From Amphiura filiformis (lineage: Eukaryota; Echinodermata; Ophiuroidea; Amphilepidida; Amphiuridae): a DNA stretch of 64,000 nt. The notes beneath the pieces were generated by a model. The model saw nothing but the letters and a program-made list of their open reading frames with translations. It was not told where the DNA came from and did not search any database. The stretch covers positions 40,140,526 through 40,204,525 of the forward strand of contig NC_092637.1 in the NCBI RefSeq assembly GCF_039555335.1, in the 5' to 3' direction. A program made the translations under genes and the position numbers. How positions within the stretch are numbered: the first letter of the stretch is position 1; every line of letters starts with the position of its first letter. Positions 13,903 through 51,300 of the stretch are shown here, one piece after another.

Positions 13903-13966
13903 ATCTCTCTTGGCATCAAAGTATTACTGTGTGTATCGCTCTCATTCATTATCACTCTCTATATTC

Positions 13967-14506
13967 CGTCGCTGTTTTGGCATACTGTCGTATGACGAAA
14001 AATGCCGTTTTGAGAAAATCGCATTTAATGTTTTTCCAATTTTTGAAGACCCACTGGAGAGCACCAAAGTAAAATATGTTTATTATTATCAAAGAATATA
14101 ATCAATAATATATTTGTCTTTGTTCTCAACTTAATACAAACTTTTTATTCATTCACTAATTAGAAGTAATTAATCTGCAAACTCATACGGCAGTATGCCA
14201 AAATATCCAATTTGATAACCTATGTAAAAATATATGATACGCCATGTGATACGCCAGTATGCCAAAACAATAGGAAACTGCAGTTACATGGTGGGCTATG
14301 GCGACGTATCATGATACGACTGTATGCCAAAAAACAAAATGAAGATTTAGGGGGGTGTTACATAAAAAACATGTCGTATCATACTAATTAGTGCCATATC
14401 TCATTAACTAATTACATTATATATTCACAAAGTTAGATCTAAGAGTTTCATTCATAACTCATTTTGCCCAAAAATTGTCATACGACACTAAACCAAAACA
14501 GCGACG
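13967..14506. mobile_element. TIR element CGTCGCTGTTTTGGC, TSD ATTC (540 bp)
   Basis: Left end CGTCGCTGTTTTGGCATAC and right end TAAACCAAAACAGCGACG are inverted repeats. ATTC flanks both sides (13963-13966, 14507-14510), and the duplicated copy near 17547-17552 shows the empty site TATATTCGTTCCG with a single ATTC. Subterminal GTATGCCAAAA motifs recur at least three times inside. A 4-bp non-TTAA duplication excludes Tc1/mariner and hAT; class left open. Confidence 0.9.
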
Positions 14507-14789
14507 ATTCGTTCCGTCTCTATCACACTTTCTCATCTCTCTCACACAAGTCCCTATCCCGTCGTTCTCACATTTTCAGACTTTCTCACCTCTCTCCCAC
14601 TCCCGTCTCTCACTATAGCTAACAAGAATCACCATTGTGTGATACTAGGTACGTTTTTCACCATTGTCTTTGTGGATTTAAAAAATTAATTGAATTGAAA
14701 TATTTACAGGAACAGCGAACCATTATAGCACCTACAAATGTTGTTCGTTTAAATGGAATAAATGTCTGCATTTGAGTGGGATTACCCAC

Positions 14790-17140: not shown

Positions 17141-17261
17141 TTATCTTGTATGTACATAACCATCAGCAGAAAGCTGGACTTGACCACCATCGCCATTGTC
17201 TGCTGCTCGCTGTTGAGTATCTCTTGAATTGCTGATATCCTGATACGGGGCTTCTTCTTGT
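17141..17261 (-). CDS. Receptor tail, terminal piece with stop
   Basis: After CATCTGCAG the frame reads [19 protein letters not shown] then [15 protein letters not shown] and TAA at 17143-17141. The stretch [12 protein letters not shown] is repeated in the upstream tail exon (about 17865-17824). Two tyrosines (PYQDI, GYVHT) sit in short acidic/polar contexts suitable for SH2/PTB docking (inference). The acceptor is weak; this may be the second half of one ancestral exon. Confidence 0.5.
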
Positions 17262-20200
17262 CTGCAGATGTCATTTTGTTTGCATGAAAAGAAGTGTATC
17301 CCCCCCCCAAAAGAAATATGTTGGGTTCCCTACTACTCCTTACACAAGTATTAATAAGTAAATTCTAACTTGTACTAGTTCATTTTTCTAAAAGTCACTT
17401 TTACTTTCTGAGTAAAATATATTTCAGTATATGTCTAGTTTCTATCTGAATAAGTAATAATCTCTCTTGGCATCAAAGTATTACTCGCAATTTCACATCT
17501 AATATATCTAACTGTGTGTATCGCTCTCATTCATTATCATTCTCTATATTCGTTCCGTCTCTATCACACGCTCATCTCTCTCACAGTAGTCCCTATCCCG
17601 TCGTTCTCACATTTTCAGACTTTCTCACCTCTCTCTCACTCCCGTCTCTCACTACCAAACAAGAATCACCATTTTATGATACTAGGTACATTTTTCCCCA
17701 TTGTCTTTGTGGATTTAAAATTTTTTTAATTGAATTGAAATATTTACAGGAACAGCGAACCATAATAGCACCTACAAGGGTTGTTCATTTAAATGGAATA
17801 AATGTCCGCATTTGAGTGGGATTCTTGAATTGCTGATATCCTGATACGGGGCTTCTTCTTGTTGAGCTTTATACTCCACATAGCCGTCAGACAGAAGAAA
17901 GCTGAATCTGACCACTTGATCCTGCGATGTCTCCTCCATGTTTATCCTGAGAAGGTGACTTCGTAGTGGTTTCGGGGGTCTTCTTTTGCAATCTATAAAA
18001 GAAAATAATATTAAACTTTCGTCGAACAATATACATTATTACCAACCTGAACCATTCTATATGAATCACAAGCCCTAGAGACTTCTGATATCGTGTTGTT
18101 TTCATTATTGTATATCTATCTGTTCCTTTCAACACTCCCCATACAGTCGTTGGAAACGCGAGATGCATGTCCAAATTTTCTAGCAAATTTGTCTTTTTTT
18201 GTTGCTGCAACTTTGTAGTGTTATTGTAAGAGTTTCCGTCGATAACTATTTTTTCCGTCGGTAAAAACGGCCAAAATTTAGTTCTTGAAAACATTCGTAG
18301 CATTGTAGCACATCTACTGACCACTTGGTGGTTTTGGTATGGCGGCGCCCATGGGTCACGTGGGCATTAAATTTAGTGCATCTTACTATAAATAGGGGAA
18401 TGTTGTGGGGGTGCGTGCGTGCGGGTATGAAAGTTAAAGGCTCCGTCAGTTTCGATCCAAATGTCGGCAAATTCATATACGGGACATCGAGGCATATATT
18501 GAGACGGTAATGCGAAAATTTGGTTGAAAACGGTCAAGAATTGGCTGCAAAAACACTGAAAATAGGGGGAAAACGGGGTTTTTGTTATGAAAATCGGTAG
18601 CCAGCCTACACGTCACTGCAGCTGGCCGGCAACGAAATATAAAAAAAATATGCTAAAATAATGAGAACAGATGGGAACGGGGTTAAATAAATAGATAAAT
18701 AAATAAATAAATAACATGGAAATTGAAAATCACAAGCATGACAAGCTAAGCAGAAGAAACTAAAAAAGAAAATGTAAGAAGAGACAGATTTATATAAATA
18801 AAATGTACCTTTTCAATAATTCTACCTGTTCAGTAATTCTTCCTGTTATAGTGAACGCTCCCATTTACTCATCTAGCGGGGACCCGCGCGAAGCGCGGGT
18901 ATCCCGCTAGTTTTATTAAATAGCCTATGATGACTGCCATACATTTTTAGGTAAAACTACATTTTGTTTTATGATTACATTTTAAAATGCTTTGTGATTC
19001 ATACAAACCTCATTTTGATAACAAGTCCAACAATGACAATAGCGATTACTACAACCACACTCACTGAAATGATCACGATCACAGTATTCGTATTCGCACC
19101 TGAGAAATAAGAAGTAAAGTTTTGTTTGTTCTATGTTTTATTTCTTGTGTTTTGCATCATAATATCAATAGTACCACGTGATAATAAATATGAGGTGATG
19201 GGTGTGCTGTCCAGGAGTATATCGCCATATGTATACAAAGTAGTTTTATAATCCGCAAAGAATATGGGAGGTTATTCGTCCAAGTTCCTATTAATAGCAT
19301 CAAATACTCTACATACTAAACAATACAAAACATTATATAATTTTTTTCTAGACCTTAGAACTACTGAGCCATAATTTGTAACACTGACTACGAAGGGGGG
19401 TACTAATTTTCAATTATGAACGCCATATACCGTTATATTTGGTACTAATATATAGCTATGGGTCTCCTCTATCCAGTGATACCTAAATGAGTACAAACAT
19501 TTCCCACATAATGTCGCTATGACGTCATAATGTGAGGGTGCCCATGCAAATTTGGGAAATTCCGGCTATGTACAAAAGTATAGGCAACATTGATTATCGG
19601 CTAAAAATTCTACAAAAATGCGATTTTCACCCAATTTTATCCTAAATTTAAAACGGAAATGACTATTTTCACCTCAATAACAAGTAAGAAGTCAGTAGCT
19701 CTTGGAATAATTTCACAATACCGAAATCATTGGGGCCTCACCAATCGCCCCCCCTCTCTGTGGTCATCTTTGATGGCCGGTCCTACCCCCGGGTAAGTTG
19801 CTGGGGTAAAAATGTTGTCACTGCAATGAGCACAAAGTATGGATCTACGATTAGCTTAGGTCGTTTGGGCGGATAACCACCCCTTGTAGTTCTAGGCTTA
19901 AAATACCAACAGCTATTATACACATATATTTTAAAGCTATTTTTAACTTGGATTTTCTTTGCATTATCAATATTTCATTTCTGTCTTTTTATTATATATT
20001 TGGGTTCAACTTCTAATTGAGGGCGCTATTTATATATATTGTTAATTTAATTTAGCCCAATAATTTAAGCTATTCCTTTCATTTCGTGATATAAAGTAGT
20101 TTGAAAAAATTCCTTGCTATAATCTTAATCTGTTGTATGATGTTTTAATGCCGTTATACATCACTGGTTTTGAGTTCGTATCACACGAGGTCTACCACTT

Positions 20201-20332
20201 GTAAATATGCAAACAAGATTTAAGATAAATAGCGGCATCTGTGTTCAAGTGTTATACATGTCATCAAACAACCGTTATACATGTCATCAAACAACCGTGT
20301 TTTGTTTAGTGTGTTTTTATTATATAGTTTTA

Positions 20333-20394
<62 letters not shown>

Positions 20395-21661
20395 GTATTA
20401 GTGTTATTAGTGTTATTATTAGTAGTATTAAGATTATTGTAAACTTTATTTTTATTTATTTTTTATTGATATTCTTAATGATAGTTGTTGGTAATGATTG
20501 TGGTGTTGGTGTCACTGTTGTAATTTTATGCTTTTATGATAATAATTATCATTTGTTTCTTTTATTTATGCAAGCATTCATTAGAAATTGTATCGCATAC
20601 CTTTTGATAAACTTGATTCTGAAATAGGTAGTGTAACTGACGTTCCTTCAGACCATGACTTTAGGGCGTACTTTGTAAACAAGAAAGAAAACAGGCATAA
20701 ATATGACAGATCAAGTAAGGGTTAAATTGAATACATGAATACAAAACCCACCCCAAGTCCATGGGAAGTGATTTTGAGAGAAAAACACGTGTATCATTTT
20801 AATTCCTTCAGTTATATTTACCTGGTCAATATGGTAAGTTTTACGTGCAAATGAGTGGGTTTCTGTATTAAGTATGACGATTAGCATTTGAGGGACTTCG
20901 TGGGGTTCATTTTAAATTTTGGACTTGGGTGGTTTTTTGAATCATATACATAGACAACAATGTTTGAATGAGATTACCACTAGTAAGATAATACAAAATA
21001 AAGCACACAGGTATGTATAATGTTGATAAGCATTCTGCCATGTAATATAAACCACACACTTTCCTTTATTAAACCCATTTTTTTTCAAAAGTCACTCTGA
21101 AGCAATGAATGTGTTACAAGCGGACTTTTATACATACTGGATTTCAATCAATGTGTTACAAGACTCAAATCATGGACTTGGGTGGTTCTTTCATACATGC
21201 TATTTTTCACATGCTCAATAGACACAGTGGATGAATTTGAGTTGTTTTTTCATACATATGACAGGCCTATGCATAGCAACAAATTCCCATGCTTAACTCA
21301 ATTTGGCCACAGTATGGACTTGGGTGGCTTTTGTGTATATTCAATTGAAGAGAAAGAGGAGGAACAAAAATCAAATCTAATTTTGAGGTGAAATTAGCTC
21401 ACCGAGTCATTGATACGGCTTGCAAATGCTGTGTACAACTGGTATGTTTGGCCCTCTTGAAGTGGAGGGTTGTAGTAGGACCCGTAGGTTTGATTGTCTC
21501 CTATTACAAAACTCGAGTCATCGGTAAGCTCTGATTTGGCCAACTCTGCTGCCACATACATTGTTGGGGATTTGTCGTAATGATCAAATACACCAGCTTG
21601 TCTTTTACGTTTGCTTGAAATCAACTTCACACCCACTAGGTAGGCACTGTGAAATAAGGCA

Positions 21662-21704
<43 letters not shown>

Positions 21705-24700
21705 TAATAATAATAATAATAACAATAACAATAATAGTAATAGTAATAGTAATAATAATAATAATAATAATAACATTAAAATAATAACAATGATAATAAT
21801 AATAATAATGTTATGTGACCCTAAAATATTCTATCATATTCATTAAAAGTTTTGTCATTAGACATTAATCTTCACTTGTTTTGATATTTATCTCCATTGG
21901 TTTGTACATGAAATATTCTGGAAATTCTAGAAAATGCTGATCAGTAAAAGTGAACAAGAAATTCATTCATAATCAGTTATATGTACAAATTTGGTGGTGA
22001 CGTAATACAGTAACCATCTATACAGGTTGATGATTCTGATTGGTTTGTGTTGAGGTAATGAGGTATTTTTAGAAATGCTGTAATTTATCTGATAATATCA
22101 ACTTCATCGAGGTAATCCTTTCACTTACCTCACAAACTCTGATGTGCTTAGTGGTATATCTATCTCGACAGTTGTTGGTGTTTTCTGACTGTCTCCCACT
22201 TGTTGCAAGTAGGGTGGACTTGAGATATCTGTATTCAATTTTATAAGCAGATATACGAGGGTATCAAAAAGTTTTTGAAATCGCCCAGAAGTGAGAGAGC
22301 TATATCAATGAAATGTTGTCAGTGCAATTACTGGTCCTTATGTACACTATGGTGCAAAAATGGTCTCATAAGTATGTTTACTTTTTTTACAGGCGCTAGA
22401 TGTCAGTACATGCCTATGTATCCGCAAAATGGAGGCATGTAGCATGATTAAGTTCCATTTTAAGGGTTACAGTGCCCAGAAAATCTGTGATGAAATAAAA
22501 ATTCCTTTTCCAAAAAGCATCAGTGACATATCACAATCACCACCGAAGATAACTTTCATTTCCTCAATCGATTTTCTAGGCACTGCAACCCTTCAAAAGC
22601 AGGATCTTAATAATGCTGCTTGCCTCAATTTTCTCCATCTTGCAGTTTATGCACAGTAACTGGGGCAGCAGGTTATTTGCATCTAGCGCCACCTGTAAAA
22701 ACAGTAAACATACTTATGAAACCATTTTTGCACCATAGTGTACATAAGGACCAGTGATTGCACTGACAAAATTGCATTGATATAGCTCTTTCACTTCTGG
22801 GCGATTTCAAAAACTTTTTGATACCCCCTCGTTTACTACATAATATTTTAATACTGAAAATTACCCAAAATAAATATATACCAATAAAAATTTCTTTTAA
22901 AGTTTTGTACAACGATACCTTCTCTGGTAATTGAGTCTGTAGATTGTTGAATACTTGCAGTGTCCCCCTTTCCAACGACAGAAGTGGCAAACACCGTCAA
23001 TTCGTATTTTGTGGAAGGTTTAAGATCGGTGAATGTATAGGTTCTCTGCTGGGAATCAAGCTCTTCATTGACGGCCAGCACAGGATCTGAACTTGTGTGC
23101 GTGAAACTGGTATCGTAAAGTTTTTCTAAAACGACGGCTTGCACCTAGCAACATAATGTAATTAATAATATGTGACCCGTTACAGCAAAAGGTACCTTAA
23201 GTCGGGAGCTACATATGCCTTATTTTGCTAGTAACAAATGCATTCTAAACCAATCATTAATCCTATTGTTGTAGAGGATAATAAGCTTGTACCTGTCTAT
23301 AGAACTGTTTGTTATACAGCTCTAGTCTTTATTTGATATGGCTAATCCCTGTTCAAGTGGCGTGAGTGGTGGGTTACAAAAGCATTGTATTGTATTTGTA
23401 TAGGTATGTAGCCACCCACTAACAATGAGAGGACATTCCTGAATCTCGTTGACTTGTAGATGATTTGAAATGACCGCCACTTCAGATTGTCATTATTGTT
23501 TGATATTTTCTGCCAACATTGGGGAAAAAGAGACACTTGTAGCAGCTGACATAAGGTACCTTTCGCTGTAACGGGTCACATATGACGAGTATCCATTACG
23601 CAAACATCCGCTTCTTTATATGTTGTATGTTTTTATACTCGTTTATTAGTGAATGTTAGCAAATCTAGTAAATGCCTGATAAAAGAATGACACTGTATTA
23701 TTGTTTGTGATATGCTTTAATAAGTTGACGAAAATATAAAGACGAAATGCTTCTTACTGTGTACTTAGTGACTACTCCATTTGGGTTTTCCGGCTCGTCC
23801 CAGGATGTCTCCATCGATGTCTTTGTAACATCACCAACCTGGAATTTCATGGGTGCACTTGGTACTGAAACATGAACGACTCAAAATGGATATAAGGAAC
23901 AAACAATTCTTCCATTCCTTTTCTATGAATTGAAAGTAGGTTAGGTGAGAAACATACAGGTGATAGATTTATCGCCAAAAAAAGATTTAACGCCAACGGT
24001 TGTTGGATGGCATGTAAAACTGAGTAATTTTTAAGAAAATCTGAACAATGATGGCGCTATTTATCTTAAATCTTGTTTGTATCTTTACAAGGGATAGACA
24101 CTTGTATAATGGTATTAGATCATCAGCAAAAAGACCAACAAATGAAAAAGAAATTTTCAAAAAACATTTTATCATGTTTAATTCAGGTTCAACTCATATT
24201 ATTTGGCTAATTTTAATTTAAGATATATATAAATAGCGCCCTCAATTTGCCCACAATTATATAGTTTACAGAATAAAAGTTACCACAAAAACGCAGAAAA
24301 TGATGAAAAATTTGATTTAGAAACGAAAATCTATGTTAAAATATATATGTGTGTATACAGGTTATTAGGGTGATAGCTGTTGGTATTATTCAGGTCGAGA
24401 ATTGAACATTAATATGTTTTGTTAGGAAAAGTAAAAAATTGATCACATCAAACAACCGTGAGGGCCATTTGTTGAGAAGTTCGAAAAGTTGGGGTCATTC
24501 AGTACTACCTGTGCAATTTTGTAACGCTAATAGTGCCTAATACAATAATTGTCAACAACGGGGTCTAAATTATTTGGAAACATTAAAAAGAAACATCACT
24601 ACCCTACACTACACTACACTACACAATTCTTTACAGAATAAAAGAACTATTTAAAAAGAAATCACTGGGTGAGAGAAATACAAAAAACGGAGTTCATTGA

Positions 24701-36700: not shown

Positions 36701-39700
36701 GACGTTGGCAATGGCAATGACATATAAAAAGTCAATTGAGAAATGTATAAGTAAGTGTCTTAACTTACAGTACAATGATACAATTTTATGATTAATGGCA
36801 TTATTATAATGTGAATACAATAAATTTATGAGTATAAAGAAATCAAGTAATCTTTATAACTGAAGAATTAGGAGACAAGGCAATTTTGATATCATCGGGG
36901 ATGGCATTCCAGAGCAATGGACCTTGCCTTCTAATGGTATTTCTAGCCAAATCATATTTGAATATTGCAGGACGAAACAAACTCGATGAACGAGTGGAAT
37001 AATTGTGGATGGTCATATTTTTAACAAAATAATTGGCACAATTACAAGGCATGTTGTTAATACTGAAATTATACATAAAGCTTTGATAAGTTTATGAATA
37101 TCAAAAATATTCAAGGTATTTAGCTGGGAAAATAAATAATACATGATAGGGAATAACGATATACGGACAAATCTACTTAACTTTCAATTACCTTGACAAT
37201 TCACTCCATACCAATCTGGATGACATTGTCCACCTGCACATTCCCCCGTATCCTTAAGACAAGTCACACCATCAGCACAATGACATTCCGATCTGCAATT
37301 GGCTCCATAGAAATCATCTTCGCATTCTATACAAACAAACATCATTTTAACACTTAAAAAGTAAAAAGGACATTTAGAAAGAATTCGTACCATTTGGTTA
37401 CAATTATGTATATGGTAAAAATATCCAAAAGTCCATATTTTTAATGAAGTAAAGAAAATGACCTCCTGCACTCAAAACGAATAAAGGGTAAACAATGAAA
37501 AACGTAGTTGTACCTTCATTACAGTCGATTCCTTTAAAGCCTGCAGCACATGAGCATCCATATGGGTGTGGCAAGCACAAAAGTACTCCTTGGCATCCAT
37601 AAGTGTGATCGTCAGTCCCTGAGCAACGCAATTGTCCATCTTGTCCCAATTTGTTTCTTCCATGAACTATGCGATACAAAACACCATTTAATATTAACGC
37701 AGACACAAAGTGTGATTGGATGTCCCTGAGCAACGCTACGGTCCATCTTGTCCCCATTTATTTCTTCCAATAACTATGCGATACAAAACACCATTTAATA
37801 TTAACGCAGACACAAAGTGTGATTGGATGTCCCTGAGCAACGCTACGGTCCATCTTGTCCCCATTTATTTCTTCCAATAACTATGCGATACAAAACACCA
37901 TTTAATATTAACGCAGACACAAAGTGTGATTTGATGTCCCTGAGCAACGCAATTGTCCATCTTGTCCCCATTTATTTCTTCCAATAACTATGCGACACAA
38001 TACACAATTTAATAAAGCAATCTAAAACAATTAACCCCGGGGGGTCACTCCCATTGTGGCGTGTACACCATCCGCGATAATAAAAACGCGTAAAAAGGGT
38101 AGTTTTTCGTGGGTATGTTTAGGGTGTCAAAAACATGAAATATTGGAAAAAAGGGTAGCAAAATTGCAATTGCTAATACGCGGAAATGAAATTTAGGGTA
38201 TGAAATTTGATGCAAGGAATAAAATCCCTGTTTAGGGTGTGAAAACACCTGTTTATGGTATTGTTTTATCCAAGGGTTAAATCCTTGTTTAGGGTGCTTT
38301 TCAAAAGTTGATTATCGCGGATGGTGTACAGGCCACAATGGGAGTGACCCCCCGGGCAATTAACACACCCTAAAAACATTTCCAAAGTAGTGAAAGTCCA
38401 CAGCTATTAAATTTAAGAAACTTAAGGGGCTGTGCAATAATTATGAGCACTGGGGGAGGGTAAAATGGGGTGGGGGTGACAAGAGTTTTTTGGCAAGCCA
38501 AAAAGGAGGGGGAGCAACAATTTTTAGAAAGCCGAAAGGGATGGGGGAAGCGATGTTGGCACCTTTTAAATAAAGTGCTCTAAAAAGGCTTAGAAAAACG
38601 GAGGTAAGTAGGCCTATGCAAATTTTTCTGCTTGCTACGTTAGCATTATATTACTGCGCCACTAAAGTATCCTTACACTTAGAAAAAAAGTTATATTTTT
38701 AACAATCATATTTGGTTAAATTAATATTTTAATCATGCACATTTTGACATATTTTGTTATTTTTTCCCTAAATATTGCACATTTTAACTAGCAATTTCTT
38801 CAACACTGTAAGCTGGCTAACAACAGTAGTAATCTTTATTTAATGAGGGAGCCTCGGGAGGGGCATGTGGGGTACATCTGTTGACATCGTGAGCCGTAAG
38901 GGACCTGTGGGCTACATCTGGTTATCTGTTTGTAAGATAATTAGCATAATAATACATGTTAACTGGGCATTGATTCTAAGCCCGGGGGTCACTCCCATTC
39001 TGGCCTGTACACCATCCGCGATAATAAAAACGCGTTAAAAGGGTAGTTTTTCGTGGGTAGGCACGATACGCGCGTATCGTGTTTAGGGTATCAAAAACAT
39101 GAAAAATTGGAGAAAAAAAAGGGGGTAGCAAAATTGCAATTGCTAATACGCGGAAATTAAATTTAGGGTATGAAATTTGATGCAAGGAATAAAAGCCCTG
39201 TTTAGGGTGTGAAAACAGGCGGGTGTTACCTGTTTATAGGGTATCGTTTTAGCCAAGGGATAAATCCTTGTTTAGGGTGTTTTTCAAAGGTTGATCATCA
39301 GGGATGGTGTACAGGCCACAATGGGAGTGACCCCCTGGAATTCTAAGCCAGAGTGTATGCCGTTTGAATTTGTAATTTTACCTATTTGACAAAATACGCC
39401 ACTGAATCCCGGTGCGCAGATACATTCACCAGATCGTTCATCACATATTCCTCCATTGTAGCAGCGTGAACATGTAAATTGACAACTAACACCCCATCTA
39501 TCAGTTTCACATGCTAAAGAATAGTAATAAAGTGTATACATATTACTGCATAAAGGAATATGTGACCGTACAGCACGAATGAGCCGTAAATGTCCTCAAT
39601 TGTATTCTGAGTTACAGTGTAAAATGGGCATGAAGGTCATATTCATAGGTATTTCAATTTGGTGCTAGGTGTATCTCATTAAATGAGGTACACGTAGCAC

Positions 39701-42700
39701 CAAATTGAGGTACCTATGAATACGACCTTCATGCCCATTTTACACTGTAACTCAGAATACAATTGAGGACATTTACGGCTCATTCGTGCTGTACGGTCAC
39801 ATATTTAGAACATGTGCAAATCACAGTAAACGACAGGTAATTAATCTTAATATGTCAATTTGTAGAGAAAGGTTATGATTGATTTTTAACTGTGCATCAA
39901 TGGTTTTCTCAGATAGTATTTTAATATTATACAAATGCTGTTTAAAATTAGATAGAAGAAAGTGCTACATTTTGCATTTAGTGCTCAGAACATGTGCAAC
40001 ATCTTCTGAAAACTAGCTATATGAATTTATCATTCTGTTGCAGCAGATATAACAAAAAGCAACAACAAGCACAAAACGTTTTCTGTACATTATTCGCAAA
40101 AGGTTAGAAAAGGTTACCAGAACACGTTTAAATGTGGGTTATATAAAAGGTATATTAAGGGTATTCAAAATATTTTTTTTAATTTACTGCAAAAGGTATA
40201 TCAGTTCGGCAATCGCTCCGCAAAATATTCTACGTAATGTTATTTCAGTGTTGTTAAAATTTTTGCCAAAAATGTTGGCAAATGATCGGGGTGAATTTTG
40301 GTGGGAAACGGGCTCCTTACCCCTTTCTTATTCTTTGACTTCCCGATTTTCTCTGTCATTTTTTTAAATGTCAGGTGCACTCGTTTGAATGGCCATTCCC
40401 TAACTGTATATTTAAATGCCTTTTTATCCGACATTATCTTATTTTTAGTTTGTTAAAGTCACATTTTGTTTAAAGCGGTAATCAGATTTCATCCCAATAA
40501 GCACCCGCAAAGAGCACCCGGTTCTGACTCCAGCTTTGCGGTGCAAAAACCGCTCTAGTTTGACTAGAACTAATCGTCGAATTCGCTCCATTGGAGCCCA
40601 ATTTATAGGTCACCAATGGTTGTTTTTAAGTTTTCAAGTCATGGATAATCCATAATAAAATGTGCTTTCACTTCCTCTTTACGCGCCATTACGATTCAAA
40701 ATGTGACAAATTATTATAACTGGAATAGTTTTATTGTGAAATTTACCATATCCCTGAATTTACAAAGCATACCTCTAACGATCAGTTGGAAAATGGCATG
40801 TTGACCATTAGTTCGTTTTCCAGCTTCATGGCACTCATAGAAACCTGCATCGTCAACGGTAACACTGGGGATTGTAACGCTCGTGACGTCATCCCAATTT
40901 GGACGGTTTCCGATTCCATTATATTGCACATTATTGTGCCACCATCTGAGAGCAGACTTGGTTGTGTCCATTGTGAAGGTTACTGACTCACCAATGCTTA
41001 CTGTTTGAGAAATATGCTGTGGTGTGACATCACCTATGCGAGAGGGAAGAAATAGTCCACATTTCCAATATCACGTATTAATCAAACATAAACACATACA
41101 TCACATATCAAACTGCAAAACCGAGTTACCGGAATATTGTCCTTTTATTTTTTAGTATTAATTCATTTAGTTTGAAAATCATCAAACTGAACCAAAATCT
41201 GCCTTACATAAACCCGAATCACGTACATTAATAAAATTCGTGACTGAATGTCTTTTTAACATTAAAAGTAATTGTCAAATATGCCCATCCGCCCCGCCAT
41301 CCGCTAAGTTTGGCAACCTCAGGACCATTTTATATGCAGACATTACACTTAAAGACGACAGCAGTTCTCTAGAATTTTAAAATCATCATGTTTTAACTAT
41401 GTAACATTGGACGAATCAGGAAATATTTAACCGATGATACCACTGAAGTAGTTCACGCATTTGTCACATCACTCCTGGAAAATAATCGCCAACTCTATGT
41501 TATATGGACTTCCGGAGATTGAAATTAAGCAGCTCTAAAGCTTACAAAATTTTGCTGACTGTATATTGTTACTCTGACTAAGCCAAGTAAACAAATTACG
41601 CCGGGTTAAAGGAATAGCATTGGCTACATAATATAAGGCAGGATTGTGCCTCTCATACGACGACTAAACACTCCAAGTAAGCTCCAATATAGAAGGGTCC
41701 AGCCGGGCAAGAAAGCAAGGGTAACGGACTGTCTCTAACAGTAACGTTAAAGTAATTTGACACCACAGAATATATATTCTACTTTCATAATTAATGTTTT
41801 CAACTTTTACCCTTTAATCTCCCTCATACTAAGGGGAAAAAACCCTTTTCGGTACACGCATGTGTTCACTTTAAAACTTAACTGACCCCCATAGCCATGT
41901 TGTTGCTTGCTTGAGAAATGTAAAGATATATTTTCACATGTTAACTCCAAGAGAAAGGTGTGAAAAACGTTCTTTTCTTTAAGAGATTGATTGATTGGTT
42001 GGTTGATGTTTTCAAAACTGAGAGTTTACTTCATATTCTTCTTCCATTCTAAACTACAATGCAGCACATTATGTGTATTGCCCCATTGAGCGTGTTTATA
42101 GTGGTGTACGGTATTTATACGGTATCCTTATACGCATATGGGATTAGGATAGAATGTGACCAACTTTCCTGATGTGACTTATCCGGTATCTCGGCTGTTT
42201 ATAGTGGCAATCAATAGCGCTATTCTGAATCCGAGGTGATTGAACTCATCGTGTTCGAGGTCACCGCAATGCAATGTGGGAGACACAAATATGGAGCCAG
42301 TTTCAAATAGTTTGCCGTCGAAACGATACCGGCCATTTTTTAAAACATTATTGCTACAGTACCGTACTATATTTTTAGTTGATGTGTTATTGCAGTGACA
42401 AATTTGAACTCAGATAGTTATATTACCCTGCTCCACTTCCTTGAATAACGGTATCGTTAATCCCTGTCTGTTTATAGTGGCCGTATACGGAATGAATATA
42501 CTGCAATATCCATCGATATCGAAGGATATTAGTTCCGTATAATAAGTGCGGCAAATAACGCTATTGGTCTGTTTATAGTGGCGACCAATACCGTATAAGA
42601 TGTACTTATACCCTAAATACCGGATAATCTGGCTCACTATAAACAGGCTCATTGGTACAGCCCAAAAATGTGTCTGTTTATATATTATACCAATTATCTC

Positions 42701-45700
42701 AGTGACGCGTGAACAGATTTTGATGATTTGTGTACCATGAAGAAACGTCACGGTTCTTGAATCTACCAAACATTTTTGATTCTTAGTCAGTGGGAGTGGT
42801 CTAGTTCGAAGACACATAATCTGATTGGACAATCGCATGATTTCGGGTGCCGTCTATCAGGCCGTAGACGATCCCACGTCATCATGAGCGTTGATAACGC
42901 GTAACACGCTTGTAGATGTATGCGTATGTATGCGTAGGCTAGTGCGGACTACGCGATTGCTCTAGCAGTACGCGCAGAATACGTGAAGCTGTAAACAAGT
43001 TTCGTTCATTTTATAATAAGGGGAGTTTTTATGACGGTAACTTAGTTTTTTGCTTTAAAAAATAGTTTACAGTTATCAAAATAATATTTCACTGACTAAG
43101 AATGAGAATAAACGACAGGAATTTTTATTTTGCCTATCCTCTACCTATGATAGACGACAGGCAGGTCCAATATTTTTATCGTAGTGGATGCAATATTTAC
43201 AGACTCAAAATATTGGACCTGCCTGTCGTCTATCACACGGTAGAGGATAGTAAAAACAAAAATTCCTATCGTTTATTCTCTAATTTTACTGCCGACATTT
43301 TATGTTATGTCCCCCAATCCACTAGCAAACTGAAGTACTGATCAGTGTGCGTTTTCTTTCTGTAACTACTGAGTTTCACTGACCCGTCTGGTTTTCTTTC
43401 TGAAAGAAGCCATCTGGATACGCCGAAAAGGAAAACACACTCTAAACAAGGACGAGGGGGCCTACTCACTCAACAACATCTTTGACTAACTCACGGTCAC
43501 CACGCCCTCTATAGTGGCTCCTGCCGCCTATAAAAGGAAGCAGTCAGAGGTGATGAGTTGCCAGTCTGACGAAACCACTAGTTTAGTGGTGAAACGTCAC
43601 TGACTAAAAATGTGAGTTTTAACACCTTCATTTCTATTGGATTCGCATAAAAAGAATCATGTTAACAACAAAAAAGTCAATTGTCATATTTCTGTAGGAT
43701 GCGTAGTTCAGGAATTATGACGTCAAATAGATCAAAGGTCAAATTTTAAAAATGCTTCAATTCGCCCAAAACTCAAATCATTGCTCTCATGATCCAGACA
43801 AGTAATAATTTCATAATTTGCGTGATTTTTGAACTTCTTATTGTCAGGTACGCATTTGATTTTTTTTGCATCCATTAAATATAGGGTACCTGCAGGTAAT
43901 ATGGGACCATTAAGGACGTTTAGCTTATTTGCATAAAAACTAAAGAAGATATGCCCACAAGAGATTGTTATGATGAACAACCTGTCCTTTAAGATTAATA
44001 AAACAGGCAATGTTACCTTGTTTTTATGTTTGTTTGGACGCTATGACGTCAAAATGACGTCATCGTCAAACAGTGTCCCATATTACCTGCATGTGCAGGT
44101 AATATGGGACACTGTGTTATCTCTATGGTGAAAATCAAAAGTTCAGAAAATCACTCTTTTGTTCTAAAAACATTTTTGTTACATGATTTTGAATGTTAAA
44201 TGCAACTTTCAACAAGCAAATTCAATTTTCTAAATAGTTTTGCTTTTCGCATTGACAATGCACACAATTTCCTATGTGTCCCATATTACCTGCACCCATT
44301 CAGTTGAAAATCACAGAAAATAATCATTTATAAAAGGAAAGTGCCACTTGTCAGTGGAATTTTACCTGCTGATAAGCTTAACCCATCACCTAAAGATCAT
44401 AAAAAATGACAAATGCCCCCTCAGTACCAGAGTTTTTGGATACACAATCATAAAATGTGACGTCATTGATTTTATATCAGGCCAAAAAAACGACATAATT
44501 TTTTGGGCAATTTCACTCTTTTTGGCATTGATTTCCAAGAGTTTGATACACAGACTCCAAAACTGCATTTCTAGAAGCACAATTGATGTCTCTAAACACT
44601 TAACAAATCAACTTAAAGTGTTTACCTTCTCTAAGCTACTTTTTGTTAAAATGAAAACAGGTGTCCCATATTACCTGCTGTCCCATATTACCTGCACCTA
44701 CCCCTAGGGCATGCACAGGTTGACATTTGATCCATTTGTTCCATCAGAAAATGGGATGATCAATATGTGTAAGTGAGGTTTTCATGTTTCTTTTGTCTAA
44801 TGAATAATTTGAAACAATCTGAGACAAATTTTGGACGAATCGGAGCATTTTCAAAATTTGAATATAATGTAAAAGGTCGTTGACCTTTGATCTATTTGAC
44901 GTCTTAATCCCTGAACTATGCATCCTACAGAAATATAACGATTGACTTTTTTGTTCCTAATGATGATAGGAAGAGTTTGAGGTATCACACAGCAAGATTA
45001 AAGCACCCATAAGATTTCACATCATTATGACTTTTGATCTAAGCTGGTGACCATACAAAATATATGAGATTTTGAAAACAGGTACTTTTACATTCCTATA
45101 CACCTATACAAAGTATCTAAACCTATTTCCAGCTTTTTAACCACAATGTTTAGCAAATTTCTATAACAGCAAGCTATGGAGTACCGCTACCTGTCTACCT
45201 GTACAAAGGTATAGGAAGAGTTGTCGAAAGTATAGCTGAAATATTTAATCTCTCGATAATTTAATTAATACCGTAGAATACAAGTATATATAAAGCTTCT
45301 AAATGAGGTTTTTGTTTTTGGCACCTTCCACAAAAACATTCAAGTAGATTGGTCTGACAATAATACACGTTTGAAAATCCACCTGTACTAGTAGTTCCTC
45401 AAACTCCAAATAATGGTGTGTTTTTTGTGGGTGTGCAAAATACCCTTATTCATTATGCTTAAAGACGGAATTCTACGGTATTCTAAAATAACAGTTTAAT
45501 TTGTACACCTACTGTTTTCAGCCATGATAATCGTATTAATTCGTTCAGTTGCACCATTTTTGTCAGCTTGACAGTAAAAAGCACCAACTCTACCTACGCC
45601 ACCTGCGCTTGGCATATAGAGACGTGATGATATGCCTATATAGGATCCAGTAGGTAATCCATTCCCTGTCCCTGTGTCCAGTGTGCGTCCAAATGATATC

Positions 45701-45815
45701 GAAGCTTCTTGGTCACCACCACTCTTAAACCCTCTGATAAACGCACCGTCATCACCATTGATATTTATTCGTGGATTGGGGCTGAAGCAGGTGACGTCCA
45801 AAACACCACTTGTCT
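17141..45815 (-). CDS. Single-pass Ig/EGF/FN3 receptor (RPTP/Tie-like ectodomain), probably decaying
   Basis: Exons in transcript order: 45815-45513 and 41033-40773 (Ig-like); 39513-39382, 37666-37514, 37326-37192 (EGF-like); 33176-32868, 32169-31879, 31493-31179, 29724-29099 (with transposon), 27977-27663, 25805-25519, 23864-23758 plus 23144-22919 (FN3); 22228-22129 plus 21646-21403 (membrane-proximal domain); 20670-20601 (stalk); 19099-19009 (TM); 17992-17824 and 17261-17141 (tail). Nearly all junctions are phase 1, so exons are shuffle-able and skippable. Ig then three EGFs then FN3s recalls Tie kinases; the membrane-proximal [14 protein letters not shown] motif recalls RPTPs. No signal-peptide exon and no kinase or phosphatase exon was found. 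A 1-nt loss in exon 25805-25519, a transposon at the end of exon 29724, and a 4-nt excess plus a split in the tail suggest a pseudogene or a rapidly changing family member. Confidence 0.75.
17264..17822. repeat. Duplicated segment copy 2, splitting the tail exon
   Basis: Colinear with 13321-14788 less that copy's two insertions. It is bounded on both sides by the same ~38 bp coding stretch (CTTGAATTGCTGATATCCTG onward, at 17223 and 17824), so a ~600 bp tandem duplication or insertion appears to have split a once-continuous tail exon. It carries the empty sites for the LINE and for the CGTCGCTG element. Confidence 0.8.
17824..17992 (-). CDS. Receptor juxtamembrane/tail exon
   Basis: Acceptor TTTTCTTTTATAG; the first base completes an AGA codon after the TM exon, giving [20 protein letters not shown] then SGQIQLSS. 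The frame then shifts: [20 protein letters not shown] continues in another frame. Compared with [12 protein letters not shown] in the terminal piece, four bases (TCTG, tandem TCTGTCTG) appear duplicated. Either the gene is broken here or the assembly has an error; a weak donor GTCTGA at the same spot is a third option. Confidence 0.65.
18381..18910 (+). mobile_element. Helitron copy B (530 bp)
   Basis: Starts TCTTACTATAAATAGGGGAA after A and ends with hairpin CCCGCGCGAAGCGCGGG then TATCCCGCTAG before T. Shares the 5' GGCTCCGTCAGTTTCGATCC block and the 3' GAACGCTCCCATTTACTCAT block with copies A and C; the middle differs in length. It sits in the intron between the TM and tail exons. Confidence 0.9.
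19009..19099 (-). CDS. Receptor transmembrane exon
   Basis: Acceptor TATTTCTCAG, donor ATGAG|GTTTGT. Encodes [18 protein letters not shown] then [13 protein letters not shown]: about 25 hydrophobic residues closed by Lys/Arg, a classic stop-transfer helix. Its 91 bp has phases 1 and 2, matching the stalk exon before and the tail exon after. Confidence 0.88.
19860..20299. mobile_element. Partial CACGGTTGTTTGA-family element
   Basis: The right end ACATGTCATCAAACAACCGT is duplicated in tandem (20252-20299), and the interior (AAGATAAATAGCGGCATCT, GAGGGCGCTATTTATA) resembles the better-defined copies at 23995-24460 and 26846-27287. The left end was not resolved. Confidence 0.5.
20334..20420. repeat. 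(TTA)n microsatellite
   Basis: A long uninterrupted TTA tract followed by interrupted units; it produces a meaningless poly-Tyr frame. Confidence 0.95.
20601..20670 (-). CDS. Receptor extracellular stalk exon
   Basis: Found by phase: the membrane-proximal exon ends in phase 0 while the TM exon needs phase 1. Polypyrimidine acceptor TTTCTTTCTTGTTTACAAAG and donor AAAG|GTATGC enclose [20 protein letters not shown] and LSKG: 23 codons plus one base, exactly the phase required. Confidence 0.7.
21403..21646 (-). CDS. Receptor membrane-proximal domain, second exon
   Basis: Acceptor CCTTATTTCACAG, donor GACTCG|GTGAGC. Encodes [32 protein letters not shown] and [20 protein letters not shown] then YQLYTAFAS. 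The AAEL ... F.IGDN.TY..Y.NPPL...Y...A pattern is that of the juxtamembrane ectodomain of receptor tyrosine phosphatases, including a basic KRKRQ run where such receptors are often cleaved. Confidence 0.88.
21660..21815. repeat. (ATA)n microsatellite
   Basis: Imperfect ATA/ACA/AGT triplet tract about 150 bp long, starting 14 bp upstream (transcript sense) of the membrane-proximal exon's acceptor. Confidence 0.95.
22129..22228 (-). CDS. Receptor membrane-proximal domain, first exon
   Basis: Acceptor AATTGAATACAG, donor GTGAG|GTAAGTG (consensus). Encodes [20 protein letters not shown] and [12 protein letters not shown]; 100 bp, phases 1 and 2, fitting its neighbours. Confidence 0.8.
22256..22831 (+). 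mobile_element. Mariner-like element remnant with long TIRs
   Basis: CGAGGGTATCAAAAAGTTTT at the left mirrors AACTTTTTGATACCCCCTCG at the right; the arms extend about 130-150 bp. Between them, after ATGGAGGCATGT, the plus strand reads [18 protein letters not shown], resembling the first helix-turn-helix of mariner transposases, then degenerates. So it is a deletion derivative. Its left edge lies 28 bp from the exon at 22228, inside that exon's acceptor region. Confidence 0.75.
22919..23144 (-). CDS. Receptor FN3 module 7, second half
   Basis: Acceptor TATGTTGCTAG, donor GAAG|GTATCG. Encodes [35 protein letters not shown] and [13 protein letters not shown]3 strands E to G with the L.P.T.Y tyrosine corner. 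Phases 0 and 1. Confidence 0.88.
23168..23583. mobile_element. ATATGTGACC-family MITE (copy 1)
   Basis: ATATGTGACCCGTTACAGCA at the left mirrors GCTGTAACGGGTCACATAT at the right, with subterminal AAAGGTACCTTA mirrored too. The interior (GTTCAAGTGGCGTGAG, ACAATGAGAGGACATTCCTG, ATTTGAAATGACCGCCA) is shared with copies at 34324-34901 and 59932-60488. Confidence 0.85.
23758..23864 (-). CDS. Receptor FN3 module 7, first half
   Basis: Acceptor TTCAG, donor ACA|GTAAGA. Encodes [20 protein letters not shown] and [16 protein letters not shown], with the FN3 W..P..PNG pattern. It joins 23144-22919 in phase 0. Confidence 0.88.
23995..24460. mobile_element. CACGGTTGTTTGA-family element (copy 2)
   Basis: Left end ACGGTTGTTGGATGGCATG and right end CACATCAAACAACCGTG are inverted. 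The interior shares ATAAATAGCGCC-type blocks with 26846-27287. It sits in the intron before FN3 module 7. Confidence 0.7.
24808..25484. mobile_element. ACACTCATAGAAAT foldback element
   Basis: TACACTCATAGAAATGACTT at the left mirrors CAATTTCTATGAGTGTA at the right. Several internal blocks built on AAGTTGATGTAAGTCGTTGC and GTTGGCATTACT are repeated in both orientations. About 677 bp, no coding potential; it ends 35 bp from the next receptor exon. Confidence 0.8.
25519..25805 (-). CDS. Receptor FN3 module 6, with 1-nt loss
   Basis: Acceptor GCATTTTACAG, donor GCCG|GTAATA. Encodes [38 protein letters not shown] and [12 protein letters not shown]; the natural continuation [20 protein letters not shown] lies in another frame. 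The exon is 287 bp where its phases demand 288, so one base is missing near 25603-25613. Sequencing error or genuine loss cannot be told apart here. Confidence 0.8.
25861..26313. mobile_element. TTAA-flanked long-TIR foldback (453 bp)
   Basis: GGGATGGGGTATGAACG... mirrors ...CGCTCATTCCAGATCCC, and an inner ~65 bp pair (GATCAATTGAAAATTTTGAT with CTTTCGTATTGAAGA) forms a strong hairpin. TTAA flanks both ends (25857-25860, 26314-26317), the duplication used by piggyBac- and Kolobok-type elements. A right-hand partial copy is at about 29905-30235. Confidence 0.82.
26481..26680 (-). mobile_element. RTE-like LINE 3' fragment
   Basis: The minus strand reads [20 protein letters not shown], then [19 protein letters not shown]-stop, followed by a (TGA)n tail. 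GRPR ... LAQDR..WR is the typical end of RTE/craniate-type LINE ORFs. The duplicated partner near 30395 lacks it, so it arrived after the FN3 duplication. Confidence 0.8.
26846..27287. mobile_element. CACGGTTGTTTGA element, TSD ATGT (442 bp)
   Basis: Left CACGGTTGTTTGAGGG and right ACATCAAACAGGCGTG are inverted. ATGT flanks both sides (26842-26845, 27288-27291), and the duplicated partner has one ATGT at 30823-30826 with nothing inserted. CAC termini with a 4-bp duplication would fit a Chapaev-type element (inference). Confidence 0.88.
27663..27977 (-). CDS. Receptor FN3 module 5 (duplicate of module 3)
   Basis: Acceptor TTCTCATCTCAG, donor TTCAC|GTAAGCC. Encodes [40 protein letters not shown] and [20 protein letters not shown], a complete FN3 with W, Y and the tyrosine corner. 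315 bp, phases 1-1. Over 90% identical by eye to 31493-31179. Confidence 0.92.
28030..28280. mobile_element. TA-flanked CAGGGTGTATTG element (251 bp)
   Basis: CAGGGTGT at the left and ACACCCTG at the right are inverted; TA on both sides (28028-28029, 28281-28282). The partner intron reads CTAGACTATTAAATAC at about 31524, an exact empty site. Tc1/mariner-type MITE. Confidence 0.88.
28355..28655. mobile_element. Foldback ATCAAGCACGAATCACGTGG (301 bp)
   Basis: ATCAAGCACGAATCACGTGG at the left mirrors CCACGTGATTCGTGCTTGAT at the right, and the mirror extends through TTTTATTTAAAAC and inner CGCG-rich blocks. Absent from the duplicated partner intron, so it post-dates the duplication. Confidence 0.85.
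29099..29724 (-). CDS. Receptor FN3 module 4, exon interrupted by a MITE
   Basis: Acceptor ATAATTTTGTACAGAC-region ending CAG at 29725. Encodes [40 protein letters not shown] and [20 protein letters not shown], then QKTDSI. Where its twin (32169-31879) runs on to donor ATCG|GTAAAA, this copy has a 331 bp transposon; the old donor (ATAG|GTAAAA at 29099) is still there on the far side. Read through, the frame leaves FN3 sequence and stops inside the insertion. As a phase 1-1 exon it could be skipped without loss of frame (inference). Confidence 0.88.
29113..29443. mobile_element. MITE GATGAGGTGACATG within FN3 exon (331 bp)
   Basis: GATGAGGTGACATGTGTTTA mirrors the right end TGTAAACATGTGACATCATA-GGTCACCTCATC. 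It is flanked by TATA (29109-29112, 29444-29447), equally readable as a TA duplication with TIRs starting TAGATGAGG. The twin exon shows the uninterrupted site CTTATAGAATCC at about 31887. Confidence 0.9.
30450..30705. mobile_element. Foldback AAGACCTGAGCGC, TSD CAGTTG (256 bp)
   Basis: AAGACCTGAGCGCAAGAAGA mirrors TCTTCTTGCGCTCAGGTCTT; arms about 60 bp, nearly perfect, including CTTGGCCCCTCAACATGTAT. The 6-bp duplication CAGTTG (30444-30449, 30706-30711) is proved by the empty partner site at 26725-26730. A 6-bp duplication is uncommon among small TIR elements. Confidence 0.92.
31179..31493 (-). CDS. Receptor FN3 module 3
   Basis: Acceptor TTCTCATCTCAG, donor TTCAC|GTAAGCC, 315 bp, phases 1-1. 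Encodes [54 protein letters not shown] and [20 protein letters not shown]. Intact FN3 and parent or sister of module 5. Confidence 0.93.
31879..32169 (-). CDS. Receptor FN3 module 2
   Basis: Acceptor CAAAATTATCAG, donor ATCG|GTAAAA, 291 bp, phases 1-1. Encodes [60 protein letters not shown] and [14 protein letters not shown]. Intact twin of the interrupted module 4. Confidence 0.93.
32868..33176 (-). CDS. Receptor FN3 module 1
   Basis: Acceptor CTTGTTAAAG, donor ACAG|GTGAGAG (consensus), 309 bp, phases 1-1. Encodes [52 protein letters not shown] and [19 protein letters not shown]. The NRDQC.E segment recurs in modules 3 and 5, so these share recent ancestry. Confidence 0.92.
33605..33815. 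repeat. Degenerate GAGTC-rich repeat, left half
   Basis: Dense degenerate GAGTCGAGTC pentamers. The same composition resumes at about 35160-35330, so one low-complexity array seems to have been split by ~1.3 kb containing two foldbacks. Confidence 0.7.
33832..34198. mobile_element. Foldback AACTGGGCTCAAAAAGAAAC
   Basis: Arms of about 160 bp: ACTGGGCTCAAAAAGAAACT through AAACAGTTGTCCAATTGACA mirrors TGTCAATTGGACAACTGTTT through AGTTTCTTTTTGAGGCCAGT. Only a ~40 bp loop separates them. Non-autonomous DNA element; flanking duplication unclear. Confidence 0.85.
34324..34901. mobile_element. ATATGTGA-family MITE (copy 2)
   Basis: CATATGTGATTGGACACTAC and the right-hand GTAGAGTCCGCTCACATATT are inverted, with AATCAGCCGTAAACTCGGC mirrored by GCCGAGTTTACGGCTCATT. 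Shares interior blocks (ACCCACCACTTGAACAGG, TTCAGAAATGTCCTCTCATT) with 23168-23583 and 59932-60488. Confidence 0.8.
35160..35400. repeat. GAGTC repeat, right half, then (GAT)n/(AAT)n
   Basis: GAGTC-rich degenerate array to about 35330, followed by GATGATGAT/AATGATAAT tracts. A short frame after it (to 35562) has no recognisable domain. Confidence 0.65.
35560..36500. other. Intron or intergenic, nothing recognised
   Basis: AT-rich; no exon-like frames with splice borders and no repeat ends were found. Confidence 0.45.
36509..37130 (-). mobile_element. 5'-truncated LINE 3' end
   Basis: The minus strand reads [13 protein letters not shown], then (other frame) [20 protein letters not shown] and [20 protein letters not shown], the usual finish of a LINE reverse-transcriptase ORF. 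The 3' end closes with (GAACTT)n, seen here as AAGTTCAAGTTCAAGTT at 36513-36532. It lies in the intron after the third EGF exon. Confidence 0.82.
37192..37326 (-). CDS. Receptor EGF-like module 3
   Basis: Acceptor GTTTGTATAG, donor CAAG|GTAATT, 135 bp, phases 1-1. Encodes [33 protein letters not shown] and [12 protein letters not shown]: eight cysteines in the MEGF/Tie-type laminin-like EGF spacing. Confidence 0.9.
37514..37666 (-). CDS. Receptor EGF-like module 2 (atypical)
   Basis: Acceptor GTATCGCATAG, donor GAAG|GTACAA, 153 bp, phases 1-1. Encodes [40 protein letters not shown] and [12 protein letters not shown]. The same position in Tie receptors holds a similarly degenerate EGF. The first ~50 bp of this exon and its acceptor are repeated three more times upstream (37722-38010). 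Confidence 0.82.
37615..38010. repeat. 107-bp tandem repeat of an exon-intron border
   Basis: GTCCCTGAGCAACGC starts at 37615, 37722, 37829 and 37936, a 107-bp period. Each unit holds the 5' part of EGF exon 2, its acceptor and 50 bp of intron. The extra units retain CTATGCGA (acceptor strand TCGCATAG) but their coding frames end quickly, so they are decoys rather than exons. Confidence 0.92.
38036..38356. mobile_element. hAT-like foldback CCCGGGGGGTCACTCCC (copy 1)
   Basis: CCCGGGGGGTCACTCCCATT is exactly mirrored by AATGGGAGTGACCCCCCGGG, and ACACCATCCGCGATAA by TTATCGCGGATGGTGT. An 8-bp duplication CAATTAAC flanks it (38028-38035, 38357-38364), as for hAT-type elements. The interior has repeated GTTTAGGGTG motifs. 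Confidence 0.92.
38425..38560. repeat. Partial GTGCAATAATTAT-family end
   Basis: GGGGCTGTGCAATAATTATG and GCCAAAAAGGAGGGGGAGCA resemble the left part of the element at 58171-58892; no right end was found. Confidence 0.5.
38981..39339. mobile_element. hAT-like foldback CCCGGGGGTCACTCCC (copy 2)
   Basis: Same family as 38036-38356. 8-bp duplication ATTCTAAG on both sides (38973-38980, 39340-39347). The two copies lie in the same intron, between EGF exons 1 and 2, in the same orientation. Confidence 0.9.
39382..39513 (-). CDS. Receptor EGF-like module 1
   Basis: Acceptor TATTCTTTAG, donor AATAG|GTAAAA, 132 bp, phases 1-1. Encodes [40 protein letters not shown] and FCQIG, a well-formed laminin-type EGF as in Tie and MEGF receptors. 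Confidence 0.92.
   Translation of the reverse strand, partial: HVKLIDGVLVVNLHVHAATMEEYVMNDLVNVSAHRDSVAYFVK
39558..39804. mobile_element. ATATGTGACCG near-perfect palindrome (247 bp)
   Basis: Arms of about 110 bp: ATATGTGACCGTACAGCACG through AGTTACAGTGTAAAATGGGC are mirrored almost without mismatch, separated by a short loop (AGGTGTATCTCATT). Related by its ends and its GAGCCGTAAATG block to the ATATGTGA family. Confidence 0.9.
39810..40770. other. Receptor intron, nothing recognised
   Basis: No exon, element ends or repeats identified. Confidence 0.45.
40773..41033 (-). CDS. Receptor Ig-like module 2
   Basis: Acceptor CTCTCGCATAG, donor TAGAG|GTATGC, 261 bp, phases 1-1. Encodes [34 protein letters not shown] and [20 protein letters not shown]. 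The W and the DAGFYEC motif mark an Ig fold; the first Cys is replaced (VTFTM), as in some Tie-family Ig domains. Confidence 0.85.
41040..42085. other. Receptor intron, nothing recognised
   Basis: No coding or repeat structure identified. Confidence 0.45.
42088..42650. mobile_element. GAGCGTGTTTATAGTG-family element (563 bp)
   Basis: GAGCGTGTTTATAGTGG at the left and CCACTATAAAC-type CACTATAAACAGGCTC at the right are inverted; ATT flanks both sides (possible 3-bp duplication). CTGTTTATAGTGGC recurs internally at 42190, 42470 and 42570, so subterminal motifs are scattered through it. Confidence 0.8.
42772..43300. repeat. Dispersed repeat (see 3050) ending in a hairpin
   Basis: 42772-43162 matches 3050-3422. 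Its last part and the following 140 bp form a hairpin: GAGAATAAACGACAGGAATT ... GGCAGGTCCAATATTTT is mirrored by AAAATATTGGACCTGCCTGT ... TCCTATCGTTTATTCTC (43102-43295). Confidence 0.8.
43665..44962. mobile_element. Long-TIR element with repeated GGTAATATGGGAC motif
   Basis: Ends mirror over about 75 bp: GTAGGATGCGTAGTTCAGGA and GACGTCAAATAGATCAAAGG versus CCTTTGATCTATTTGACGTC and CCTGAACTATGCATCCTAC. Inside, GTCCCATATTACCTGCA occurs six times in both orientations (near 43893, 44083, 44098, 44276, 44664, 44681). No coding potential found. Confidence 0.78.
45000..45500. other. Receptor intron, nothing recognised
   Basis: No features identified between the long-TIR element and the Ig-like exon. 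Confidence 0.45.
45513..45815 (-). CDS. Receptor N-terminal Ig-like module 1
   Basis: Acceptor ATTCATGTTTTAG, donor AAACA|GTAGGT, 303 bp, phases 1-1. Encodes [40 protein letters not shown] and [20 protein letters not shown]. Two Cys (VTCFS, AFYCQ) at Ig spacing, resembling the N-terminal Ig of Tie-like receptors. A signal-peptide exon should lie further upstream; none was recognised. Confidence 0.8.
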
Positions 45816-47747: not shown

Positions 47748-48229
47748 ATTATTATTATTATTACTAGCGGGACGCCCGCGCTTCGCGCGGGTCCCCGCTA
47801 GATGAGTAAATGGGAGCGTTCACTAAAACAGGAGCAATTACTGAACAGATGGAATCATTGAAAAGGTAAATTTTATTTATCTAAACCTGGCCTCCTTGGG
47901 CCTTCATTTCCTTTTTAGCTTCTTTCTTTCTTTTGAGTTTCTTCTACATGAGCCAATTTTGTTCCATTTTTTAAAATTTTTGCTGCATAGCTTGTGATTT
48001 CCCGTTTCCATGTTAGGCCTATATTATTTGTTTAATTCTGTTCTCAGTTAGCTTTTTAATTTATATTTCCTGATTAGTTTCTTTTTTTTTAGTTAGCTTT
48101 TTTTTTGTTACATTTCCTGATTAGTTTCTTTCTTTCCTTCTTTAGCCTATTTTATTCCCGTTTTCATTTTCTTTTGATAACCCACATACCCGTACCTTTT
48201 TTGTCCTCATTTTCTTTTATTATAGATTT

Positions 48230-50879: not shown

Positions 50880-51300
50880 TAGATAGATACATAGATAGAT
50901 ACATACAACATTCCCTTATTTATAATACTATACACTCACTTGAGACGATTTGAAGTATTGCTATTAGCTTCAAGAACACAGTCGACGCCATTATTTCCGT
51001 ATTACCATGTTCTTAATAACTGTATGAACTAAGCATAAGCATACCACATGAACTTACCATGTATATAAATATATAAATATAACAATATACTATTGTACAC
51101 CACATGAACTTAGCAGTACAATATAACAATATGCTATTGTACTTTTGATTGTATTTGAATAGGTCGTGTTTTGATCAATTTCGGTCCGTCAGAAAAGTGT
51201 GTGACTTCCTCATTTTGGATCTGTATTGAGAATCTCAACTCAGGTGGAAAGATAGAAAGGAACGGTTCCGTGTTGTTTGCTTTCAGGCTACTACATAGGG

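Follow-up and report, generated by a model that had tools for sequence, protein, structure and literature searches.

A Tie-like head joined to an R2-type RPTP stalk in an Amphiura filiformis gene with an apparently disrupted tail and no catalytic domain found in the window

The window analysed here, a stretch of 64,000 nucleotides from Amphiura filiformis, carries on its minus strand a gene for which stop-to-stop reading, codon-level reading and splice-site scoring yielded 19 candidate coding exons: 18 up to the transmembrane (TM) exon, and a tail exon. The gene spans from a probable signal-peptide exon (50991-50940) to a stop codon ending at 17141. The encoded domain order is a signal peptide, two Ig domains, three EGF domains, seven FN3 domains, an RPTP-type membrane-proximal domain (MPD) and a TM segment, and the exons up to the TM segment are as follows.

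50940..50991, minus strand: probably the first coding exon, encoding the signal peptide MASTVFLKLIAILQIVS, with the phase-1 donor gtgagt; the only candidate to pass the filter
45513..45815, minus strand: Ig1, phase 1-1; the C-terminal end aligns with TIE2 Ig1, with a weak Ig_Tie2_1 match
40773..41033, minus strand: Ig2, phase 1-1; from reading, splice scoring, TIE2 alignment and Pfam scan
39382..39513, minus strand: EGF1, eight cysteines, phase 1-1; from TIE2 alignment and Pfam scan
37514..37666, minus strand: EGF2, six cysteines (two lost), phase 1-1; from TIE2 alignment, with no Pfam match when taken alone
37192..37326, minus strand: EGF3, eight cysteines, phase 1-1; from TIE2 alignment
32868..33176, minus strand: FN3-1, phase 1-1; from reading, splice scoring, Pfam and a local FN3 profile
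31879..32169, minus strand: FN3-2, phase 1-1; from reading, splice scoring, Pfam and the local FN3 profile
31179..31493, minus strand: FN3-3, phase 1-1; from reading, splice scoring, Pfam and the local FN3 profile
29444..29724, minus strand: FN3-4, a copy of FN3-2 (96.8%), with uncertain 3' end and donor
27663..27977, minus strand: FN3-5, a copy of FN3-3 (96.5%), phase 1-1
25519..25805, minus strand: FN3-6, whose frame appears to shift by 1 nt near 25600
23758..23864, minus strand: first half of FN3-7, phase 1-0
22919..23144, minus strand: second half of FN3-7, phase 0-1
22129..22228, minus strand: first MPD exon, phase 1-2, absent from the earlier exon list; within the RPTP-mu alignment
21403..21646, minus strand: MPD core exon with the basic site SKRKRQ, phase 2-0; Fn3_PTPRU match at E=7e-12
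20601..20670, minus strand: last MPD exon, phase 0-1, absent from the earlier exon list; from splice scoring
19009..19099, minus strand: transmembrane exon, phase 1-2

The ectodomain exons up to FN3-6 are of phase 1-1. With the earlier exon list, no in-frame splicing was possible around the MPD, where the steps from phase 1 to 2 and from phase 0 to 1 were each short of one exon. Three added exons make the phases fit: the signal-peptide exon, and exons 22228-22129 and 20670-20601, which render the phases compatible around the MPD. The first of these two MPD exons was the best of 12 candidates in a lenient scan, with none in a stricter scan, and the second was the better of two candidates. Direct joins from 22919 to 21646 and from 21403 to 19099 were ruled out by phase, and a poor phase-1 acceptor at 21635 (score -0.7) offers a possible alternative for the join from 22919. 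Splice-site scores were uneven along the gene, with poor acceptors for FN3-2 (-3.6) and EGF2 (-1.5) despite clear homology.

The next feature on the same strand is a Rhodopsin-like GPCR region (8950-10508) that is spread over several frames, as would fit a broken gene, introns or assembly indels; its two 7tm_1 matches score 25.1 and 19.0 bits against a cut-off of 30.5. This region holds direct repeats of 45 nt (93%; 9468-9512 and 10025-10069) and 58 nt (9922-9979 and 10543-10600). An LDLR-type gene lies at 6445-8165 on the plus strand, with EGF_CA, Ldl_recept_b repeats and an EGF-like exon, and is open over four ORFs. Also on the plus strand is an open frame of 381 codons (48146-49288) without a Pfam match, which we take to resemble the C-terminal end of a non-LTR retrotransposon polyprotein. 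Long intronic inverted repeats, 96-97% complementary and MITE-like, occur at 33826-34200, 39557-39805 and 22259-22826. No RNA genes were found in the window at Rfam gathering scores, and no tRNA was found there by a scan that used the bacterial setting.

The Ig/EGF part of the predicted protein matches human TIE2 at E=8e-44, with about 250 residues aligned over the end of Ig1, Ig2 and the three EGF domains. Three TIE2 chains match this part at E of about 1e-43, and the next match is a scavenger receptor at 2e-5. Taken alone, Ig1 has a Pfam match to Ig_Tie2_1 only, which is weak (E=0.069) and below the cut-off. No third Ig domain was seen by eye between EGF3 and FN3-1 in the translation of 33.2-37.2 kb. 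The Ig-Ig-EGFx3 head is therefore common to this gene and to TIE2/TEK, whereas the present gene has an EGF2 short of two cysteines, seven FN3 domains followed by an RPTP-type MPD, and no kinase found in the window; Tie receptors have three FN3 domains. The EGF2 exon starts within a 107-bp tandem repeat, whose three copies (37601-38014) cover both the acceptor and the start of that exon.

Beyond the head, the affinities change. FN3-1 to FN3-3 are nearest to RPTP-F and contactins, with no TIE chain among the 40 sequences listed, and the best match of FN3-7 plus MPD is RPTP-mu (E=7e-10). FN3-7 plus MPD also match the Pfam family Fn3_PTPRU (E=3e-11, 44.1 bits, cut-off 24.7), while the R3-type model PTP_tm reaches 19.3 bits, below its cut-off of 26.3. 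The basic SKRKRQ site of the MPD aligns with a basic stretch of RPTP-mu. The gene thus resembles R2-type RPTPs (RPTP-mu, PTPRU) in its FN3 row, in an MPD with the FxIGDxxxYxxYxNxPL motif and in a basic site at the matching place, but differs from them in its Tie-type head, in lacking a MAM domain (the N-terminal part gave a list of 14 Pfam families without it) and in that no phosphatase domain was found in the window. The mixed Tie/RPTP ectodomain that had been proposed for this locus was borne out by the TIE2 and RPTP-mu matches, and the union of a Tie-like head with an R2-type RPTP stalk is real.

Membership of the R3 RPTP or uroplakin 2/3 group was ruled out by signature and by internal intron phases. 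The juxtamembrane FN3-like domain of that group is marked by a C3...C4NGPL signature, according to the accessible part of PMC5242461; it was not found in the MPD, which has no cysteine in the corresponding stretch. The intron phases over MPD and TM are 1,2,0,1,2 here versus 1,1,2,1,2 in the R3/UPK genes covered in that part of the article, so that three of five agree: phase-1 introns flank the MPD and a phase-2 intron follows the TM in both, whereas the internal MPD introns are of phase 1 and 2 there and of phase 2 and 0 here.

Two parts of the gene depart from this regular picture, the first being the later FN3 exons. The FN3-6 exon (25805-25519) has 287 nt, where two phase-1 introns would require a multiple of three. 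An FN3 profile built from the present gene aligns in turn with two of its frames, one at positions 4-69 with 21.0 bits and the other at positions 65-91 with 4.9 bits; the latter score is not significant by itself, and this second half alone also has no Pfam match. A frame change appears to lie near 25600. An intron of about 50 nt was judged an unlikely cause, since sequence alignable to FN3 would be lost with it. Run over the whole window, the same profile matched eight fragments of the present gene with E below 1e-4, all other matches having E of at least 0.95, and tblastn at E up to 1 found no paralogous exons in the window outside the gene. 

FN3-4 and FN3-5 copy FN3-2 and FN3-3, and three intron stretches compared between the duplicates are 97.6-99.2% identical. 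The direct duplication that carries these two FN3 exons (26080-32190) has 96-99% identity and could represent two haplotypes joined by the assembler. The duplicated exons differ by 9 synonymous and 11 nonsynonymous changes, with a dN/dS of 0.38 (one-sided P=0.029), and their nonsynonymous divergence of 2.4% is no lower than that of the intron stretches (0.8-2.4%). This is a weak indication of coding constraint, acting either on duplicates or on two such haplotypes. For the duplicated exon that starts at 29724, the sole phase-1 donor is a poor one. The original prediction of an Ig-Ig-EGFx3-FN3x7-MPD-TM receptor in coherent phase consequently held for the domain order and, with the extra exons included, for the phase over most of the gene, and fell short of the whole gene at the FN3-6 exon and at this poor donor.

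The second irregular part is the tail, the features of which are as follows.

17823..17992, minus strand: tail exon remains, with GQIQLSS, a 4-bp duplication, then DGYVEY and PYQDI in another frame
17262..17822, no strand assigned: inserted repeat element of 561 bp with exact 40-bp direct repeats at both sides
17141..17261, minus strand: distal tail, with the second copy of the PYQDI stretch, then the stop

After the TM exon, the acceptor at 17992 scores best (7.6), and the tail read from it stops after 35 residues, none of them tyrosine, because the 4-bp duplication (DNA TCTGTCTG) parts GQIQLSS from DGYVEY. GYVEY, PYQDI and GYVHT are all present and share no single open frame: the first two can be reached via an acceptor at 17982 (score -1.8), and the last two via a skip to an acceptor at 17261 (score -4.8), both of which were kept as possible because FN3-2 was accepted with its score of -3.6. 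PYQDI occurs twice because its coding stretch stands, as exact 40-bp direct repeats (17823-17862 and 17222-17261), on both sides of the 561-bp insert. A 40-bp direct repeat is unusually long for a target-site duplication. The inserted element, which has an interrupted relative at 13319-14783 with no flanking repeat there by eye, is read as a recent insertion into the ancestral tail exon.

The tail remains contain the motif GQ[IV]QLS[SA]DGYV twice, one copy across the 4-bp shift and the other in one frame, and the predicted natural stop was confirmed as a TAA after GYVHTR. The repeated DGYV motif and this stop suggest, as far as the letters can tell, that the ancestral tail had about 80 residues and three tyrosine motifs. 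Given the 4-bp duplication and the 561-bp insertion, a short or altered tail is the probable product of the assembled allele; assembly error, decay and a damaged allele are all possible sources of the damage. What had been foreseen was a short tail with all three motifs that signals through docking tyrosines. The motifs are there, but the duplication, the insert and the poor acceptors leave no one open tail, and docking-tyrosine signalling was not upheld for the tail as assembled, with the best-scoring version devoid of tyrosine and the motifs split over frames and by the insertion.

The reading that we favour, at a little less than an even chance, is a Tie/RPTP-like receptor that has no enzyme and whose tail, in its ancestral form, acted as a docking platform through its tyrosines. 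It draws on the TIE2 and RPTP-mu matches, the phase-compatible MPD exons, the natural stop, the twofold DGYV motif, the dN/dS between the FN3 duplicates, the tunicate precedent described below and the lack of a strict catalytic signature in the window. Against it stand the tail that is not open in one frame, the apparent FN3-6 frameshift, the EGF2 domain minus two cysteines, several poor splice sites, and a nonsynonymous divergence between the FN3 duplicates equal to that of introns. Much of this evidence bears on the main rival, a decaying gene or pseudogene in which a once-working Tie/RPTP-like receptor, catalytic or not, is now damaged. The FN3-6 frame change, the tail duplication and insert with its 40-bp repeats, the altered EGF2, the poor donor of a duplicated FN3 exon and an adjoining GPCR-like region that is likewise spread over frames are all in keeping with decay. 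However, the remaining exons of the ectodomain have open frames and show good conservation relative to TIE2 and RPTP-mu, the FN3 duplicates carry a weak sign of constraint, the second half of FN3-6 scores so little alone, and assembly indels could yield the same picture; we regard decay as possible but rather doubtful.

A normal catalytic receptor, with kinase or phosphatase exons outside the window or misplaced by the assembler, is improbable. No strict tyrosine-kinase or PTP signature occurs in the six frames of the window (127,996 residues) in a scan that matched 10 of 11 control strings, the eleventh having been mistyped. Seven loose cores are present, comprising three HRDV (plus strand), two DFG (minus strand; 31861 and 19728) and two WTD, the latter within the LDLR-type gene, and none of these HRD-, DFG- or W[PT]D-like strings has kinase or PTP context around it. 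Pfam found no catalytic domain in 26 of the 35 minus-strand ORFs of at least 40 aa at 10.5-17.4 kb, among which two matches (DUF7176 and PH_met_RdRP) were weak and sub-cut-off. The original prediction that no kinase or phosphatase exon precedes the next genes agrees with these scans, the last of which took up the check below 17 kb that it called for. The absence of an enzyme applies to the window, rather than to the transcript or the genome. In favour of a catalytic receptor, Tie and RPTP receptors are both catalytic, the locus is imperfectly assembled and the scans covered the window and those 26 ORFs, but the tail ends in a stop and the GPCR-like region follows on the same strand. Least probable is a receptor whose short tail is inert and which acts through a shed or decoy ectodomain rather than by tail signalling; this would suit the 35-residue tail without tyrosine and the basic cleavage-like site in the MPD, but sits poorly with a tail that retains DGYV twice, as though selection had acted on its ancestral form.

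Enzyme-free relatives of RPTPs have a precedent. In the accessible part of PMC5242461, tunicate R3-related sequences without a PTP domain have cytoplasmic tails that resemble the UPK3a tail, a feature of which is a tyrosine phosphorylated at fertilisation in Xenopus, and UPK2/3 are derived from such a receptor via loss of the PTP and most FN3 domains. As described in that part, the tunicate receptors (CionaNocat) and uroplakin 2/3 share with the present gene an RPTP-type juxtamembrane FN3-like domain, a TM, no PTP and a short tail, but the present gene has a Tie-type head and an R2-like MPD without C3...C4NGPL. Apart from those two features, it is a receptor of the same general kind as the PTP-less tunicate ones. 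The sea urchin Paracentrotus has a Tie-1-like kinase according to PMC10855541, and TIE1 is among the top genes of a sea cucumber coelomocyte cluster (PMC11244903); the present architecture is not described in the accessible parts of either article. No gene of this Tie head/RPTP stalk make-up was recognised in the open-access literature that was searched.

Under the favoured reading of an enzyme-free receptor, exon shuffling would have joined a Tie-type recognition head (Ig-Ig-EGFx3), an FN3 row and an R2-type RPTP MPD into a single-pass cell-surface receptor. The head may bind a ligand or a neighbouring cell, and the MPD would be cut at the convertase-like SKRKRQ site, with the halves remaining associated as they do in other RPTPs. 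Cytoplasmic tyrosine kinases could then have phosphorylated the ancestral tail, some 80 residues long, at YVEY, YQDI and YVHT, and this tail could have recruited SH2 proteins; alternatively, it may have tuned a catalytic Tie or RPTP partner. Tie2 and VE-PTP, members of the Tie and RPTP families, act together in vertebrate Tie signalling. With considerable reserve, we suggest that the gene could represent a distinct class of invertebrate receptors that combine a Tie ectodomain with an R2-type RPTP stalk, lack an enzyme and end in a short DGYV/PYQDI docking tail; such receptors would act as ligand-controlled scaffolds or modulators. Should the gene be decaying, it would offer a snapshot of the loss of such a receptor. 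If orthologues keep the architecture, the Tie head would be used outside receptor kinases, joined to an RPTP stalk, and this would bear on the origin of Tie signalling and on how catalytic receptors turn enzyme-free.
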